Shown piece by piece: positions 27,078 to 47,526 of a DNA stretch of 64,000 nucleotides. Under the pieces are notes generated by a model, which was not told where the DNA came from, did not search any database, and saw only the letters and a list, made by a program, of their open reading frames with translations. Both the position numbers and the translations under genes were made by a program. How positions within the stretch are numbered: the first letter of the stretch is position 1; each line of letters opens with the position of its first letter. Source of the stretch: an endosymbiont of Bathymodiolus septemdierum str. Myojin knoll (GTDB lineage Bacteria; Pseudomonadota; Gammaproteobacteria; PS1; Pseudothioglobaceae). Where the stretch lies: the NCBI RefSeq assembly GCF_001547755.1, contig NZ_AP013042.1, forward strand, positions 558,001-622,000, written 5' to 3'.

Positions 27078-27159
27078 GTCAGTCAACGAGCGACTAATTC
27101 CGCTCTACCTTCCCCTCCGTATTATTTGTTTTTGTTTTTTGAATGATGTATTTATTTTG

Positions 27160-27375
27160 CTATCTAAGTGATTTTATATCTTGCTCAGATAATGTTGCTG
27201 GGTCTATACCTTGATGAATTATTTTTACTATTTCAGTGTGTGTTTTAAATACACATTGGCAGCTGTTGTTGACACAAACACAATACCTTTCTGCAACTTT
27301 ATTAGATAGTTTTCTTGACGATCTGATTGTCGCTGGTAACCCACAATTTGGACAAGGTGTTGTGATGATTCTCAT
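27160..27375 (-). CDS. ogr: Ogr/Delta-like late gene activator
   Basis: 71 residues (P2 Ogr is 72). Zinc motif Cys-Pro-Asn-Cys-Gly near residue 8, and Cys-x-Cys-x4-Cys region near 32-40, followed by Val-Phe-Lys-Thr-His. The Arg-Ser-Ser-Arg-Lys-Leu-Ser segment matches the conserved DNA/RNA-polymerase-contact part of Ogr. It activates P2-type late promoters through RNA polymerase alpha. Oriented leftward, upstream of gp43-gp45. Confidence 0.88.
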   Translation of the reverse strand: MRIITTPCPNCGLPATIRSSRKLSNKVAERYCVCVNNSCQCVFKTHTEIVKIIHQGIDPATLSEQDIKSLR

Positions 27376-27415
27376 ATAACTATCATTATACAGAGTTATT
27401 AAAATTTTGCTTATT

Positions 27416-27850
27416 AAGTGCTTATTACAACAATTAAGGAATTTTCTTATTTATTTACCTAATACCAAAAAAACCCTGCTACTAAGCCATTCTTGTGTTT
27501 TACCAGTGTTTTTAAAAAAAAAGTATGGTTAGGGTCGGGGATTAGGTAATAAGGTAATTAATTTATAAAAATCACTCTATAACACTTGATACAGTTGACT
27601 TTTTAACAATTTCAACAAAGGTAATTATCAGGTAATCACAAAGTAATTAATTACTTTTGTTTTGGTAATTTTTTAATAATTAAATTCCTTTAAAAATCAA
27701 TTACTTAACTTTGCGATTACCTTTGATTACCTTTGCATGGTAACTTTAAAAACCCTTTAGCCGCAGTATATACAGACCAATTAATCACCTTAATTACCTT
27801 ATTACCTAATCCCCGACCATACCCATATTTTTTTGTTGTAATAAGCACTT
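27416..27850. repeat. Palindromic GGTAAT/ATTACC element (non-coding)
   Basis: Outer arms AAGTGCTTATTACAACAA (27416-27433) and its exact complement (27833-27850); inner perfect 29-bp arms at 27533-27561 and 27790-27818. GGTAAT occurs at 27545, 27553, 27620, 27631 and 27664, then ATTACC at 27716, 27726, 27793 and 27801, so polarity switches near the middle. The interior is AT-rich with no ORF. It lies between the Ogr gene and the head operon. Possible roles: replication origin, late regulatory region or a mobile element; undecided. Confidence 0.8.
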
Positions 27851-27933
27851 TCTAAACCAAATGCCAAGAAATAAAACTTCTTAACTGTATAACTGTATAA
27901 CTGTATTTACATTTTTTAAATCACACAAGATTT

Positions 27934-28973
27934 ATGCCAAAAAACAAGCAAACATGGTATTCAATGAGTGCTAAAGACACACGGCACCATTTATATTTAT
28001 GAGCAAATCGGATATTGGGGGTGTGACTGCCGCCAGTTTTGCAAAAGAATTGGTTGCGCTGGGTGATATAAGCACCATTACACTACACTTAAACACCCCA
28101 GGTGGTTCTGTTGGTGACGGCACAGCAATTTACAACGCGCTTAAAAACCATAAAGCAACAGTTACAGTTGAGATTGATGGCTACGCACTATCAATGGGTT
28201 CAATTATTGCGCTGGCTGGCGACACTATTAAAATGTCAAGTAACGCTTTATTTATGATTCACAACCCATCAGGCATTGTTTTTGGCGACGCAGAAGATAT
28301 GCGCAAATCAGCAAATGTTACTGATAAGCACAAAGAAGCAATGCTTAACACTTATCAAGCAAGAACCGGCATTGATCGCAACAAATTATCAAAAATGATG
28401 GACGATGAAACCTGGTTTACAGCAGACGAGGCGCTAGACAATGGTTTTATTGACGAAGTAACAGACTCAGTAGAGCTTGCGGCAAGCGCTAATACTCAGC
28501 AGTTTATGTCTAATTTAAACCTAAAGCACCAACCAGATGGCTTTTTAAATTCAGAGCCAAACATCAAGGTTAACCCAGGGCTAATTACAGCCTTTAAAAA
28601 TTTATTATCACAATTTAACAAAAACCAAAAAATAAAGGAGAGCAAGATGGACAAGGAAGAATTAAACGCACTATTAAAATCCAAGCAAGACGCAGATGCA
28701 GCTTATGCAGAAGCAGTAAAAAACAACCCTGAGCTGCTAGCGAAAATGCCAACAGAAAAGGAAGAAGATACTACACCTACTTCTAATCTTGACGACGATA
28801 AAACCGTTCAATCGTTAGTTGATAAAATTGACACCCTTACCGATCAACTAGCAACAGCCAACAAAAATCACGAAGACCTTATTGCAAAACTCGGAAATAC
28901 GATTGAAAGTTTTAATCGAGACGAAGCAGACGGCGGCGCCAACGGCAACACAGACACCGACGGCGTTTATTAA
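27934..28973 (+). pseudogene. ClpP-type prohead protease/scaffold fusion, frameshifted 5' end
   Basis: The first 20 codons (ATG 27934, Gln-Thr-Trp-Tyr-Ser-Met) are in a different frame from the next segment (Ile-Tyr-Ile-Tyr-Glu-Gln-Ile-Gly-Tyr-Trp-Gly), which is out of frame with the main ORF from 27999. Two +1 insertions, near 27983 and in the five-G run at 28017-28021, explain this. The main ORF (324 aa from ATG 27999) keeps Ser-Met-Gly-Ser (nucleophile Ser region about 67), His-Asn-Pro (about 89) and the scaffold tail, but lacks the N-terminal strand. It is the P2 gpO position. Confidence 0.85.
28647..28973 (+). CDS. Nested scaffold protein (internal start)
   Basis: Within the protease gene, AAGGAG at 28635-28640 lies 6 bases before an in-frame ATG at 28647. 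The 108-residue product would be the helical, acidic scaffold part alone, as with lambda C/Nu3. It ends with a Gly/Asp/Asn-rich tail. This is inferred from the strong internal ribosome site and domain boundary; the frameshifts upstream do not affect it. Confidence 0.6.
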   Translation: MDKEELNALLKSKQDADAAYAEAVKNNPELLAKMPTEKEEDTTPTSNLDDDKTVQSLVDKIDTLTDQLATANKNHEDLIAKLGNTIESFNRDEADGGANGNTDTDGVY

Positions 28974-32134: not shown

Positions 32135-32323
32135 ATGCCACAAACCACATTTAAACTTGAGCCAACCAAGGCGGAAACCGAAGCTCTTGTGCTGGATCCT
32201 ATTACCAAAAAACCTTTAAAAGAAGGCGAAACCAAACCTAAAAACACATTTTGGATGGCACGCATTGCTGAGGGCGATGTGAGAATTGTAAAAGAAAACA
32301 TTAAAAACAAGGAGAAAAAATAA
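32135..32323 (+). CDS. DUF2635 (Mu gp38-like) protein
   Basis: 62 residues. Leu-Asp-Pro-Ile-Thr-Lys-Lys-Pro-Leu-Lys-Glu-Gly-Glu, Trp-Met-Ala-Arg and Glu-Gly-Asp-Val-Arg match DUF2635, always found just before the sheath gene in Mu-like phages. Role unknown. Shares its last base with the sheath start. Confidence 0.85.
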   Translation: MPQTTFKLEPTKAETEALVLDPITKKPLKEGETKPKNTFWMARIAEGDVRIVKENIKNKEKK

Positions 32324-33438
32324 TGTCAAATATCAGCTTTAACGAAGTACCGAACAACATTAGAGTCCCGGGCGTTTACATTGAAATAGACCAGTCTTTA
32401 GCAAATAATGCTGAAGACTTGCAGCAGATTTTAGTGATTGCACCCAAGGGCACTGCAGCCGCTAATAAAGTATTCCCAACTACCATTCCCGATGACGCGC
32501 TAAATTTATTTGGTGAAAATTCAGATGCGCACAAAATGGTCACCACTATTTTTGCACAAACCAAAGCGCTGCCGATTAACACAATCGGTGTTGATGGTAA
32601 TAATATTGGTGCAGCGTTGGCCGCCATTGGCGATACCCAATATCATTATATTTTTAGCACTTTTAATGACAAAGCAAATATTGATCGCCTTGCTGATTTT
32701 TTAAAAGAGCGATTCGATGCCATGGCACAAATTCCTGGCATTGGTTTTGTTGGCAAAAAAGGCACGAGTGCAGAAGTGAATGCGTTTTCAAAGCAATTTA
32801 ATTCGCCATTTGTCTCTATCGTAGCGATTAACAGCCTTGTCTCTACGGTTTCAGAATCTGTGGCGGCTTATTATGGCTAATGTGCGCACTCATTAGCGAT
32901 TGACCCGGCTCGCCCATTGCAAACACTTCAGTTGCACGGCATTAAAACCAATGCAACAACAGAATGGACGCCGACCGAACGCAACTTAATGCTTTACTCA
33001 GGCTCATCAACTTACACCACTAACACCGCTGGCGATGTTTTTGTTGAGCGCCCGATTACCACTTATCGCGAAAATAACGCAGGCGTGGCTGATGACTCGT
33101 ATCTTGATGTGATGACTGTTGCCACAGCAATGTATTTCCGCTCCAAGCAGCGTAGTCGAATTTTGAGTCGTTATCCGCGTCATAAATTGGCAAAAGACGG
33201 TACAAACTTTGCCCCTGGCCAAGCAATCTTAACGCCAAAATTATTCAAGTCAGAAATGTTTGGCTTATATCGTGATTTAGAATTGGCAGGCATTGTGCAA
33301 GATTTTGACAATTACAAGACCACTTTTGTTTGCTCAATCGATCCAAAAAACCCAACGCGCATCAACTATCAAGACCAGCCAATATTTGTTAATGGCTTGA
33401 TTATCGTTGCCGGCAAAATTCAATTTCGTAAAAATTAA
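32323..33438 (+). pseudogene. Tail sheath protein (Mu gpL-like), nonsense codon
   Basis: The same frame encodes both halves (185 and about 185 residues), separated by a single TAA at 32878-32880. The N-terminal part has Phe-Asn-Glu-Val-Pro-Asn-Asn-Ile-Arg-Val-Pro-Gly-Val-Tyr and Asp-Gln-Ser-Leu-Ala-Asn; the C-terminal part has Asp-Pro-Ala-Arg-Pro-Leu-Gln-Thr-Leu right after the stop, and Arg-Tyr-Pro-Arg-His-Lys-Leu-Ala. No contraction-competent full-length sheath can be made unless the stop is read through. Full length would be about 371, short compared with Mu gpL (495). Confidence 0.9.
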
Positions 33439-36573: not shown

Positions 36574-36900
36574 ATGAGTATAGGTTCATTTTTAGAGGAT
36601 GTCGGAAACACAGCAGAGGATATTGGCTCTACCGTAGGAGATGTCGGCACTGGAGTTGTGGATACCTATAACGGTGTTAAAACTGTACTAGGTGATATTA
36701 AATCTGCAGTGGGGGATATTAAATCTGTAGTAGTTGATGTCAAAACTACGGTACTTGATATCCAAGAGATAGTAAGTGATGTTACAGACGCATTGGATGA
36801 CATCACAACCGTGGTTGGTCTTGGTAGAAATCCTGTGGCAGGTGGTAGACGCAATCCTGTGGCAGGTGGTGGGCGCAGGCGCAGGCGTCGTAGGAGATAG
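36574..36900 (+). CDS. Asp/Val repeat protein with arginine-rich tail
   Basis: 108 residues. Residues 8-80 are tandem 7-11-residue units with Asp-Ile/Val-Gly/Lys-Ser-x-Val (for example Gly-Asp-Ile-Lys-Ser-Ala-Val), predicted as an amphipathic helix or coiled coil. Residues 85-99 repeat Arg-Asn-Pro-Val-Ala-Gly-Gly twice, and the C-terminus is a run of about eight arginines. No known family. Its leader is related to that of the next gene. AAGGAGG precedes the ATG. Confidence 0.6.
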   Translation: MSIGSFLEDVGNTAEDIGSTVGDVGTGVVDTYNGVKTVLGDIKSAVGDIKSVVVDVKTTVLDIQEIVSDVTDALDDITTVVGLGRNPVAGGRRNPVAGGGRRRRRRRR

Positions 36901-36964
36901 AAGCACCGCGAGTAAAGCAGTGTGTATTACTGCGAATTTAATTTAATAAGTAAGGAGAAATAAT

Positions 36965-37867
36965 ATGTTCGGTTTTGTAGGTAAACTTTTTAATAATGTA
37001 GTAAACGAGGTCAGTAAGGTGCCAGATATTGTCGTATCTGAAGTTAACAAGATACCTGATACTGTTAACTCAGTTGTGAGGGATGTAGAAAAGGAAGTTA
37101 ACAAAATACCTGATACTGTCAATTCCGTAGTAAATGATGTACCAGGTATTATCAACTCTGTAGTAGATGATGTGGCAAAAGAAGTTAGCAAGGCACCAGA
37201 TATTGTCAACTCTGTAGTAGATGATGTGGCAAAAGAAGTTAGCAAGGCACCAGATATTGTCAACTCTGTAGTAGATGATGTGGCAAAAGAAGTTAGCAAG
37301 GTACCAGATATTGTCAACTCTGTAGTAGATGCCGTACCTGACCTTGTCAACTCTGTGGCGGGGGAGGTCCAATCCACATTGGAGGATATCAAATCTGCGG
37401 TGGAGGATGTGCCAGACATTGTTAACTCTGTAGTGAAAGAGGTAAAATCCGCATTAGAGGATATCAAATCAGTAGTTGCTGATTTGCCAGACATTATCAA
37501 ATCTGTAGCAGACGCAGTGCCTGAGATTGCCAATTCTGTAGCAGATGATGCACCTGAAATTGCCAACTCTGTAGCAGATGCTGTATCCGATGCTGTATCC
37601 GATGCTGTACCTGACATTGTCAACGCTGTAGCAGATGAAGTCAAATTTGTAGTAGACGCTGTACCAGGTATTGCCAACACTGTAGCAGATGCGGTACCAG
37701 GTATCGTCAACTCTGCAATTGGGGGTGTCAAATCCGAAGTAGATGGAGTCAAATCTGTAGTAGAGGAAATCAAAACTACTGTTGAGAATATCAAATACGA
37801 AGTAGAAAAACTTAAAAAATCAAATACATCTGAAAGACGCAAACAGAGGCATGAATTATGGCGATAA
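36965..37867 (+). CDS. Proline-punctuated amphipathic repeat protein
   Basis: 300 residues, almost all made of about 18-22-residue units of the type Pro-Asp-Ile-Val-Asn-Ser-Val-Val-Asp-Asp-Val-Ala-Lys-Glu-Val. Each unit starts with Pro and continues as an amphipathic helix rich in Val, Asp and Ser. The last 50 residues are a Lys/Glu coiled coil ending Arg-Lys-Gln-Arg-His. No signal peptide. It resembles apolipoprotein- or LEA-like repeat proteins in pattern only. Located among fibre genes; function unknown. Confidence 0.65.
   Translation: MFGFVGKLFNNVVNEVSKVPDIVVSEVNKIPDTVNSVVRDVEKEVNKIPDTVNSVVNDVPGIINSVVDDVAKEVSKAPDIVNSVVDDVAKEVSKAPDIVNSVVDDVAKEVSKVPDIVNSVVDAVPDLVNSVAGEVQSTLEDIKSAVEDVPDIVNSVVKEVKSALEDIKSVVADLPDIIKSVADAVPEIANSVADDAPEIANSVADAVSDAVSDAVPDIVNAVADEVKFVVDAVPGIANTVADAVPGIVNSAIGGVKSEVDGVKSVVEEIKTTVENIKYEVEKLKKSNTSERRKQRHELWR
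37153..37314 (+). repeat. Three near-identical 54-bp tandem repeats in coding sequence
   Basis: Copies start at 37153, 37207 and 37261 (period 54, nearly identical), each encoding 18 residues of the repeat protein. The near identity shows recent expansion, while flanking units have diverged. Confidence 0.88.
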
Positions 37868-42564: not shown

Positions 42565-43945
42565 ATGCCAGCGCTAAGTAAGCAGCAAAAACAAGCACTG
42601 GAGTTGTTCTTATCAGCAACTTCTATTGTTGATATTGCCAAGGCAACGGGCGTTGCGCGCACAACCGTTTCCGCATGGATTAAAAAATTTAATTGGCAAA
42701 TTCAGGCTGATTACAAACCACTTAAACAACAAATATCAGAGCGAATTCGCGTGCTATTAAAAGTGATGGATAAAACTTGCGAGCAAAACAAAGAGTTAAA
42801 AACACTGCTCGCTTGCACTAGCGACGATTACGCACAAAGATTAGACCCAAAAGCACACTCTGAAGGGCAAGGCAAGGTCGATAAAAGCAAAAAAGGCAAT
42901 AAACTGGTTAAAGTTAAAAACAGTTTTGAAGGTGTTACGCAAAAAGATTTTGACGGTAAATTTGATTCACTACTACTAGGCTATCAGCGCAAGTGGCGAG
43001 AAGCAAAAATCGCACATGCAAAAGGTGAGTTTATTGAAGACGCAAAGGGCAAAAAAATCAAAATGCCACGCACCAGGGCAATACTCAAATCACGCCAAAT
43101 TGGCGCCACTTGGTATTTTGCCGCTGAGGCCTTTGAGGATGCTGTGCTGACTGGTGACAATCAGATTTTTCTATCAGCATCACAAAATCAAGCGTTCATT
43201 TTTCGCACCTACATTCGCCAATTCGCAAAGGATTGGTTTGATGTTAATCTAAAAGGCACGGATTCAATCGAGCTGTGGAATGGCTCTACTATTTACTTTT
43301 TAGCAACTAGCGCACGCACCGTGCAAGGCTATCATGGCCATACCTATATGGATGAATTTTTCTGGATGCAAAATTTTAACGAGTTTAAAAAAGTCGCAAC
43401 GGGTATGTCGTCGCACAAAAAATGGCGACGAACCTACTTTTCCACACCATCCACACTGAGTCACCCTGCGTATGGTTTGTGGTCAGGTTCGCGCATGAAA
43501 AATGTAAAAGACAAAGACAATGTTGACATCACAAATAAGCATCTAAAATACGGCGAAATTGGCTCTGACAGAATTTGGCGAATGGTTACAACTATTACTG
43601 ACGCTGAACAAATGGGGTGCAATTTCTTTGATATTGACGAACTAAAAGACGAGCATTCAAAAGCCGAATTTGACAACTTATTCTTATGTAAATTCGTTGA
43701 CGATGCCGACTCAGTTTTCAAATTAACCAAATTACAAAAAGGCGTGGTTGAGGCTGGCGCTTGGGACGATTTCAACCCTAAATCCTCTTAGCCTTTTGCC
43801 CAGCACCCTGTGTGGCTAGGTTACGACCCTGCTCGCTCAAAAGACGACGCATCGCTTGTTGTTATTGCCCCGCCGTTGCAAGCGGGTGGTAAGTTTAGAT
43901 TGCTTGAGCGCCATAGCCGAGCGAGTTATTCACTTAAAGTAACTT
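42565..43945 (+). pseudogene. Terminase large subunit (P2 gpP), nonsense and 3' deletion
   Basis: N-terminal HTH (Ile-Ala-Lys-Ala-Thr-Gly-Val-Ala-Arg-Thr-Thr-Val-Ser, about 20-32), ATPase motif with Lys-Ser-Arg-Gln-Ile-Gly-Ala-Thr (about 175) and Met-Asp-Glu-Phe-Phe-Trp (about 260). TAG at 43789-43791 stops it at 408 residues; the same frame goes on (Pro-Val-Trp-Leu-Gly-Tyr-Asp-Pro-Ala-Arg-Ser, nuclease Asp region) for about 50 codons and then breaks into the portal remnant. The full-length enzyme is about 590 residues. Packaging is therefore lost. Confidence 0.9.
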
Positions 43946-44488
43946 GATATGCGTCAAGAAATCTACGGCATACCCGAGTGGTTCGCCGCGGTTTCAAGTA
44001 CGCTATTGAGCGAATCCGCAACCCTATTTAGACGCAAATATTACAAAAACGGCGCGCATGCAGGCTTCTTACTGTATGTTAATAGCCCTGCTATCGGCGA
44101 AGAGGAAGAAGAAGAAATCAGCGAGCAGCTAAACTCATTTAAGGGCCTTGGTAATTTTCAAAACATGTTCATTAACGGACGAGGCACGGAAAAATATAGG
44201 CCTGAGCTTATCCCGATTGGTCAAATTGACGCTAAAGACGAGTTTTTAAATATCAAAAACGCAACACGCGATGACATCATGGCAGCGCATCGCGTGCCAC
44301 CGCAATTAATGGGCGTGATGCCATCGAACATGGGCGGATTTGGCGATGTCAAAAAAGCGGCCGCCGTATTCTTTGCTAACGAAATCACCACATTGCACAC
44401 TAAGTTATTATCAATCAACGACATAGTCGGACAAACCGTCTTTACAACCCAACCTTACGAGCTTTTAAAAGAGGAAAAAACATCATGA
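43943..44488 (+). pseudogene. Portal protein C-terminal remnant (P2 gpQ)
   Basis: 179 residues from the ATG at 43949, corresponding to the second half of a portal of about 340. Gln-Glu-Ile-Tyr-Gly-Ile-Pro-Glu-Trp-Phe is the conserved mid-portal motif; Arg-Val-Pro-Pro-Gln-Leu-Met-Gly near 115 is also typical. The N-terminal half was removed by the deletion that truncated the terminase. Its end overlaps the E gene by 4 bases. Confidence 0.9.
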
Positions 44489-44724
44489 AAAATCAAACAA
44501 TAACACTATCAACTGCTGTGGAAATCAACGGCAAAAAAATCAAATCTATCACTTTAAGAGAGCCAATGTCTGGCGAACTTCGGGGTTTGTCAATGCTTGA
44601 AGTCGTGCAACTTAACACCGACGCCATCACTACGCTTGCACCGCGTATCAGTGACTTAACTGAGACTCACATGGTCAACATGGGCGCATCTGATTTGCTG
44701 GCTGTTGGCGGGGCAATCCCAGCA

Positions 44725-45598
44725 AAAACACAGGCACATAGGCACGCAGACACAGACATACATCACAATGTACATACACCACACACCACACACTACACAA
44801 TGTGTAGTTATTTAATTACAACACTACACAATGTGTAGTTATTTAATTACAACACTACACAATGTAATGATAATGCATTGTGTAGTTATTTAATTACAAC
44901 ACTACACAATGTAATGATAATGCATTGTGTAGTTATTTAATTACAACACTACACAATGTGTATTGGTGCATATATGTAAGCACACCAGCACATACAGGCT
45001 TAATCAACCATACATTGTGTAGTGTAAAGTAAAACTTTACAATGTACTGTTGATTATGGAAAATGATTTCTAGAACCGTTTTTTAAAGGGGGTAAACTTT
45101 TTGAGTTTTCTTGCTTTTCTAAAATTACTGTAAAATCAATGAGTTAAGGGCTATGCGATGTAAAGTTTTAAAACGAGTTCAGCACAGGGTAATATACGGT
45201 AAATTTCCAATGGCTTGAAAGTAGCAGTGTATCAATGTTTTACTAATAAATAGGTGAAACCAGTACATAAAAAGGGTGTATTTCCATTATTTGAAAAACT
45301 CATATCGCGATATGAAAATTTTAAGAATTCACAACGCTCACGCAAATACATGCAAAAACGCCCACAAGCCCCGTCCTTAAAGGCTTACAAGCGTTTTACC
45401 CAACAATATGAATAATTCCTGTTTTAGCCCATTTTGTCAAAAAAGCCTATAGCAGTAGGGTATGCAGACCATTGAAAAAATATCAAATTCTTACCTGTTT
45501 CCAATATTTCTGATATTCCCCTGCACTTTCTACATTATTCCAATTAATTTAACTTTACACTGAGCAGTCATACCAATGGTTTTAACACTCAATGTAAA
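44725..45598. mobile_element. Non-coding repeat-rich insertion in the E gene
   Basis: About 870 bp separating the two halves of E/E'. Borders are deduced from the interrupted gene, to within about 10 bases. No ORF over 60 codons and no transposase. The left third holds tandem palindromes (44793-44968) and GTAAAGTAAAACTTTAC near 45026; the right two thirds are featureless AT-rich sequence with a TCGCGA palindrome near 45308. No clear terminal inverted repeat or target duplication is visible. Type of element unknown. Confidence 0.75.
44793..44968. repeat. Tandem array of CTACACAATG palindromes
   Basis: Units start at 44793, 44824, 44855, 44902 and 44949: two of 31 bp, two of 47 bp, one partial. 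Each unit has CTACACAATG, its complement ending TGTGTAG, and a constant linker TTATTTAATTACAACA. The long form inserts TAATGATAATGCATTG, making a 10-bp stem hairpin (CTACACAATG/CATTGTGTAG). A further CATTGTGTAG copy lies at 45013. Confidence 0.92.
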
Positions 45599-45604
45599 TG
45601 CGGG

Positions 45605-45763
45605 TTTTTTCGCACCTGCCAACTGATACCAGAATCAGTTGAGCAGGCATACGCAGATATCTCAGTCGTGTTTCATTGGCAACCAAGCGAAATGGACACA
45701 ATGAGCCTTGATGAGTTAATGAGTTTTAGGAAAATGGCGCAGGAGCGCAACAAATATGAGTAA
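45605..45763 (+). CDS. E' frameshift extension with T-TTT-TTC slippery site
   Basis: A heptamer T TTT TTC (45605-45611) sits near the end of E. A -1 shift there enters the frame Arg-Thr-Cys-Gln-Leu-Ile-Pro-Glu to Asp-Ile-Ser-Val-Val-Phe-His-Trp-Gln-Pro-Ser-Glu-Met ... Leu-Asp-Glu-Leu-Met-Ser-Phe-Arg, the GpE/E' family signature, ending at TAA 45761-45763 and overlapping the tape-measure ATG. P2 makes E+E' the same way. With E cut off upstream it can no longer be produced. Confidence 0.8.
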   Translation, partial: FFRTCQLIPESVEQAYADISVVFHWQPSEMDTMSLDELMSFRKMAQERNKYE

Positions 45764-47526
45764 ATTAGATCTAAGTTTTAGTCTAAAGATGATTGACAAA
45801 ATCACTGAGCCAGCTCGCCGCGCGCAAAAAGCACTTGGTGGCACTGGTACAGCTCTTGACAAGTTACAAGCTAATCTTAAAGACACTAAGGCTCAACAAG
45901 CAAGTTTAGATGCTTTTAAAAAGACAACTCAGCACGCCAATAAAAACAAAGAGGCTATTGCAGCACTGAATTTGACGCTTAAAGAAAAAGGAAAATTAAC
46001 CACTAGCCAAGCCGCCAAGCTCAAAAAACTCAACGGACTAAACAGCGAATACACTAAGTCGTTAAAGTCGCAATCTGCTAGCATTAAAAAAATGGGCTTA
46101 TCCACCAAAAACCTAAAGCAATCAGAAAAAGCACTGCAAGCGAGCCGCGAAAAAAGCATTAGGCAGATAAAAAAATCAACAAGCACACTAAAAAATTAAT
46201 AGCGCTTAGATCTAAATTAAAAAGCGTTGCAAAAATGGGGGCTATTGGTGGCGTTGCTGCCATCGCAGGCGTCGCTAAACTCGGCCGTGTGTTACGATCA
46301 ACAGCAGACGAGATGGACAAAATGCACAAGCAGGCTAAAAACTTGCAATTACCACTGGACCAATTCCAGGCGCTAAGACATCAAGCGGAGCTCGCAGGCG
46401 TTGCTAATGACGCATTAACAAAGTCATATCAAACATTTAACAAAAATTTAGGCGAGTTAAAAACGAAAAAAAGTTCATTGATGTCAACAGCACTCAAAGA
46501 CTTTGATCCAAAATTACTTGAAGCGATGAAAAATGCTAAAGACTCAACTGCAGCATACGACTTGGTGCTGGTTAAAATGCAAAGCATGACAGACGCTTCT
46601 AAAAAAGCCGCCCTGGCAAACGCTGTTTTTGGCCGCAATGGTAAAGATATGCTCAATATGCTCAGCGAAGGTACCGACGGCCTGGCAAAAGCAAAAGCCA
46701 ATCTTGCTGCGCTAGGCGGTGGGCTCACGGCAGAAGATGCCAAAGCCGCAGAAGACTTCAACGACTCAATTACACGCATGGGGCAAGCGTTTGACACCGT
46801 TAAGTTTTCCGCATTCACGCCAATCCTTAAAGACTTGACGGGCTTATTTGAGCGATTAGTCGAAAAAATGAAAGACAAAGCTTGGCGTGATGACATTACT
46901 GCAAAATTAAAAGCAGGGCTTCAGGGCGTTATGTCTACTGTTAAGTCTGTGATTAAAATATTTCAAGCTTTAGCACCAGCGATTAAATTAACTTCACATT
47001 AGTTGCTAGCGTCATGGTTGCAGCCAAAATACCCGCCATAATCGGCGCAATATCGACGGCTTTTACAGCGCTAAAGGTCGTTATGCTCGCTAATCCTGTG
47101 GTTGCCATCGTTACCGCTATTGCCGCTGCTGCTTATCTGATTTACGACAACTGGGAGGGTATTAGCGGTTTTTTCACTGGAATTTGGGACGGAATTAAGA
47201 GTGTTTTTTACTCGGGAATTGTTTTTATTGTTGAATCAGTTAAGCGAATAACAGCGTTAATTCCCGATAAATTCTTGCCAGATTCAATGTCAGCTGAAAG
47301 CCTTGATAAAACCATTGCAAAATACAAGACGCTTTCAAGCACTATTAAAACCAACGATATTGCTAGCAAAATATTGGTAAACAACAAGCCTCAGCCCGCG
47401 CAAAAATCAACGGTCGAAGTTAATGTTAAAATAGACTCACAAGCCCCTGCCACGGTTGAAAAAGTCAAAACCACTGGATTTGCAAGTGCAAATCTTGATC
47501 TTGGCAATTTTGCCACGGCGTATTAA
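45756..47526 (+). pseudogene. Tail tape measure protein, two frameshifts
   Basis: Three consecutive ORFs form one protein of about 590 residues. Shift 1: the seven-A run at 46169-46175 needs an eighth A to continue into Leu-Ile-Ala-Leu-Arg-Ser-Lys. Shift 2: AAA at 46985-46987 needs a fourth A to continue into Phe-Thr-Leu-Val-Ala-Ser-Val-Met. The protein has an N-terminal coiled coil, a Gly/Ala hydrophobic part (Ile-Gly-Gly-Val-Ala-Ala-Ile-Ala), a middle with Phe-Gly-Arg-Asn-Gly-Lys-Asp, and C-terminal hydrophobic helices (47014-47160). Its length would set tail length. Confidence 0.9.

Follow-up and report, generated by a model that had tools for sequence, protein, structure and literature searches.

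The window analysed here, a stretch of 64,000 nucleotides covering bases 558001-622000 of the single-contig genome (1,469,434 bases) of an endosymbiont of Bathymodiolus septemdierum, carries a P2-type prophage with an 881-bp stretch of non-coding DNA interrupting its E/E' tail-chaperone gene at 44719-45599 (coordinates are those of the window unless stated otherwise). The 5' part of E (44485-44718, forward strand) comprises 78 codons ending in ...GGAI; assigned by Pfam PF10109, PHROG 103 and its relatives, it matches Phage_TAC_7 (E 3e-9) as far as residue 75. The 3' part of E/E' (45600-45763, forward strand; Pfam PF06528 and relatives) holds the slippery run GGGTTTTTTC, the E stop at 45624-45626 and a P2 GpE domain at approximately 45653-45754, with the E' tail, in frame 45548-45763, matching Phage_P2_GpE (E 4e-13). 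An E domain, a T6 slippery run and an E' in the -1 frame with a GpE' domain together identify the target as a P2-type frameshifted chaperone gene. Because of the insert, the E frame stops after its first 78 codons and a further 39 of read-through, and E' is uncoupled from its frameshift.

The position of the insert follows from comparison with uninterrupted relatives. A related E gene was present at 67 loci in IMG/VR, and in 23 of the 25 loci measured the end of E and the FHW motif of E' stood in one fixed relation, with E' in the -1 frame after the T-run; in other genomes of the family the E gene was not found, meaning that there was no sister prophage copy for comparison. These relatives set the limits of the insert at 44719-45599, a few bases beyond the 44725-45598 of the preliminary description, and left 78 residues of E before the insert rather than 80; its placement of the insertion inside E was borne out both by the relatives and by an empty site that restores the frame. 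Joining the flanks at 44718/45600 gives an E of 86 residues (...DLLAVGGAI/AGFFAPAN, then the stop; the slash marks the join). Excision of the insert puts ATC next to GCGGGTTTTTT, exactly the string seen in an intact relative, the DNA junction of the joined flanks, ATCGCGGGTTTTTT, is identical in relative L054, and compared with the relatives no E sequence is missing at the target. A target duplication in register with the frame-restoring junction is absent: the best direct matches, AAT, CAAT and GCGGG, are out of register; a junction at any of them would shift the frame of E or cut the gene short, and so none of them supports a duplication. Nor did we find terminal inverted repeats: between the outer 60 bases of the two insert ends, every inverted match is shorter than 6 bp.

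The insert has three parts. A CA-rich leader at 44719-44789, with ACACCAC repeats at 44776-44799 evident in the sequence and from a tandem repeat finder, is followed by five head-to-tail palindromic units (44790-45025), which have a common stem, ACTACACAATG/CATTGTGTAGT, and very different loop lengths; the 10-mer consensus first proposed for this array was too short and gives way to this longer stem. Repeat and fold analysis delimited unit 1 (44790-44820) as 31 bp consisting of ACACTACACAATGTGTAGT and TATTTAATTACA, with unit 2 (44821-44851) identical to it. Unit 3 (44852-44898) is 47 bp, that is, unit 1 with 16 bp more in the loop, and forms a 13-pair hairpin; unit 4 (44899-44945) is identical to unit 3. 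In unit 5 (44946-45025) the common stem encloses a long loop (ACACTACACAATGT ... ACATTGTGTAGTGT; inverted repeat, fold -30.3 kcal/mol), and a further hairpin at 45001-45056 (TAATCAAC ... GTTGATTA; inverted repeat, fold -20.0 kcal/mol) overlaps it, such that the two are mutually exclusive. The remaining 540 bp or so (45060-45599) are AT-rich, with no ORF, fold or relative, and hold one perfect 16-bp palindrome, TCATATCGCGATATGA, at 45300-45315.

The array is real: the 31-bp units and the 47-bp units each match at 100% in the tandem repeat finder, and folding of both RNA and DNA strands went well beyond shuffled sequences (z -6.6 and z -5.4, respectively), while the AT-rich remainder folded no better than shuffles (z +0.55). 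The reading frames of the insert matched no family in Pfam or PHROGs, consistent with the original account of non-coding, palindrome-rich DNA that lacks both a transposase and terminal repeats, and an Rfam search gave no family near or at its cut-off, all matches to eukaryotic microRNAs and snoRNAs being far below gathering scores. Terminator-like matches (5, against 1.2 in shuffles) proved to be the array hairpins and have no proper U run, and a possible inverted repeat pair at 45021-45034 and 45548-45561 is internal to the insert and of chance-level strength.

The interrupted gene lies in a prophage that is broken elsewhere too, with terminase, portal, sheath and tape measure all disrupted independently of E. 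Profile searches found a truncated terminase large subunit at 42565-43791 and a portal protein reduced to its C-terminal half (profile positions 169-343 of 344) at 43949-44488, both on the forward strand; the tape measure gene T (45756-47526, forward strand) falls into three frames, 45756-46199, 46235-47002 and 47014-47526, and the tail sheath is split into frames 32323-32880 and 32917-33438 by a stop or frameshift around 32880-32917. With E one of several broken genes, there is no sign of selection or regulation behind the insertion. At 43791-43949, where the truncated terminase gives way directly to the portal half, we observed a deletion junction. Two adjoining coding frames at 36574-37867 contain strong internal tandem repeats, including a 54-bp unit present 3.5 times at 37141-37331 and an arginine-rich end of the first frame; these frames possibly encode fibre-like or phase-variable proteins.

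A search of the genome found no second copy of the insert. Nucleotide searches, in which a divergent or rapidly evolving element would escape notice, found no relative of it in 58 relatives, in 83 family genomes or in 369 sampled genomes of the class, nor any match in 72,556 plasmids and 50,697 phages; further copies may exist in metagenome contigs and sister strains. The stem-loop pattern was likewise missing in the rest of the genus (12 genomes searched) and of the class sample (369), our own genome being counted in both figures. In IMG/VR, searched with exact patterns only, the insert occurs solely in a single provirus record (L049/L119) that shares 5,000 bases with the window DNA without a difference. 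This record is probably the same genome or assembly as the window, and its identity is therefore no independent proof.

Several shorter matches could be discarded. The 14-mer CATACAGGCTTAAT recurs at nine other places, all of them copies of one transposase gene, where the match stops at 14 bases, meaning it is a coincidence; the genome holds nine near-identical copies of this transposase gene (L019-L027). The 17-mer ACTACACAATGTGTAGT was found in seven other IMG/VR contigs, about the number expected by chance for a collection of this size, with flanks that differ from those in the insert. Four different IMG/VR contigs (L117, L118, L120 and L123) have ACTACACAATGTGTAGT, then two A/T bases, then AACGCAAA, a pattern suggestive of a palindromic site that recurs in some group of phages, with flanks unrelated to the window. 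Across 85,000 genomes the stem-loop pattern hit one Bacillus locus (L128), upstream of a BlaI/MecI-like frame, approximately the number expected by chance, and the many 18-24 base matches of the insert tail in family genomes (E 0.002-0.1) are scattered and at noise level.

How, then, did this DNA come to lie in E? We think it probable that a one-off non-homologous insertion entered a prophage that is a relic today, and that the array then grew by hairpin slippage. A single event of the end-joining or template-switch type would have placed foreign or displaced non-coding DNA in E; a hairpin-forming sequence inside it may then have been duplicated head to tail by replication slippage, and slippage may also have trimmed units at their hairpin centre, so that two of 31 bp and two of 47 bp resulted, the same but for 16 bp of loop. 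Evidence for such an insertion comes from the clean, in-frame empty site, with its target complete and no in-register duplication, and also from the one genomic copy, the lack of any relative in genomes, phages, plasmids or, beyond its own record, IMG/VR exact patterns, the lack of any protein or RNA family, and the independent breakage of other prophage genes; the identical units with their 16-bp loop difference fit recent slippage. The joining mechanism, the history of slippage, the order of the breaks and the neutrality of the insert are inferences, whereas its borders, its single copy, the structure of the array and the broken state of E/E' and its neighbours were observed directly.

Transposition without target duplication would, however, leave the same clean, loss-free site, and the insert might be a non-autonomous element moved in trans by a hairpin-recognising Y1/HUH enzyme (IS200/IS605, RAYT or TIRYT), a reading that we consider unlikely. 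In its favour are the hairpins, the missing target duplication, the six Y1_Tnp matches in the genome (at least four of which are open frames of 215-250 residues) and, as described for GTAG-type REPs (PMC3733652), a CTAC/GTAG at the base of every hairpin. Yet the insert is single-copy, its hairpins are internal rather than at its ends, and the hairpin motif is confined to the array apart from chance-level near matches, all close copies lying in the one array and three other 12-mer near matches comparing with two in a reversed-pattern control. Near the six Y1 genes we found no array motif beyond one chance-level partial match, and the flanks of the five inspected for repeats had other repeats (GGGGACAGGCTACTTTT, CCTAAGCCCGGCTTA and ACTTATAAGCCCGGC) or none, and in no case the array stem. 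Mobilisation in trans, as first suggested for this element, was thus left unsupported.

Four Y1/HUH transposase genes have flanking repeats of their own (genome coordinates: L152, 813500-816700; L153, 41000-44000; L156, 976200-979300; L157, 367200-370300). These inverted or palindromic repeats are GGGGACAGGCTACTTTT, TAAAGGGGACGCTACC, CCTAAGCCCGGCTTA as a double palindrome, and ACTTATAAGCCCGGCGTATAAGTT, and the loci are TIRYT-like units in a reduced, symbiont-type genome; GGGGACAGGCTACTTTT is close to GGGGWSAS, the motif of the TIRYT group (PMC3733652).

With its cluster of short palindromes that have CTAC/GTAG at the base of the stem, the array resembles GTAG-type REP/BIME sequences and their RAYT/TIRYT enzymes (PMC3733652, PMC2817692), and, as in REP/RAYT systems, inverted repeats flank Y1 enzyme genes of this genome. 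REP families are usually multi-copy and flank their enzyme, with 37-427 exact copies in the Stenotrophomonas cases (PMC2817692). Unlike REP/BIME sequences, which number tens to hundreds of copies, the array occurs at one locus only, inside a gene, and its stem is AT-rich and different from the repeats flanking the genome's own enzymes. In copy number and in position relative to an enzyme gene the array thus differs from GTAG-type REPs. A GTAG head below a stem of 6-13 bp marks such REPs; the array has GTAG/CTAC, though paired within the stem instead of standing free as a head, which could be read either way. The insert is like MITEs and degraded IS remnants in being non-coding, shorter than 1 kb and equipped with hairpins, and unlike them in having no terminal inverted repeats, target duplication or relatives. 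Rickettsia palindromic elements (RPEs) are short and in frame. They sit inside coding genes (PMC2635572), and our insert resembles them in being a palindromic sequence that entered a gene in a host-associated bacterium; in contrast to the multi-copy RPEs, it is single-copy, 881 bp long and stops the frame. That the insert represents a rare non-autonomous hairpin-array element of an undescribed family, inserting without target duplication and with other copies in other strains or mobile DNA, seems to us improbable.

There is a similarly slim chance that the insert is a captured piece of replicon or control region from a plasmid or phage, with the array as iterons or as the operators of a DNA-binding protein. 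Regular palindromic 17-bp sites at 31-bp spacing beside AT-rich DNA would fit; but the spacing shifts from 31 to 47 bp, the plasmid and phage collections gave no match, and the sole similar sequence, the Bacillus locus, is about what chance would yield in 257 billion bases. The insert also holds no replication gene, and with neither an initiator gene nor a homologous replicon the captured iteron replicon of the preliminary description found no support. We regard animal host DNA or an assembly chimera as very unlikely: the leader is CA-rich and CpG observed/expected is 0.50, against 0.97 for the window, but other prophage stretches (27101-28081 and at 37001) are equally CpG-poor, and after the insert E continues with precisely its next base, as would not happen in a chimera. 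Finally, a functional RNA element, or an intron spliced out to leave E intact, is most improbable despite the strong RNA fold of the array and the frame-perfect empty site, given that in Rfam neither a group I nor a group II intron appears up to E 1 and no RNA family reaches its cut-off, that the insert ends follow the base rules of neither group (U before the intron and G at its end for group I, a GUGYG start for group II), that the remaining 540 nt do not fold, and that the host gene sits among dead genes in a broken prophage.

A one-off non-homologous insertion followed by slippage thus remains our preferred explanation. The insert is without any function that can be shown, and it gives the impression of ordinary debris left by a decaying genome, not of a new genetic element. 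It offers a well-bounded example of a relic prophage in a reduced genome acquiring non-coding DNA, with a hairpin array growing inside; if it proves to be missing from other strains, or if the number of units varies among them, it could be used to mark strains and would provide a clean case of the joining mechanism.
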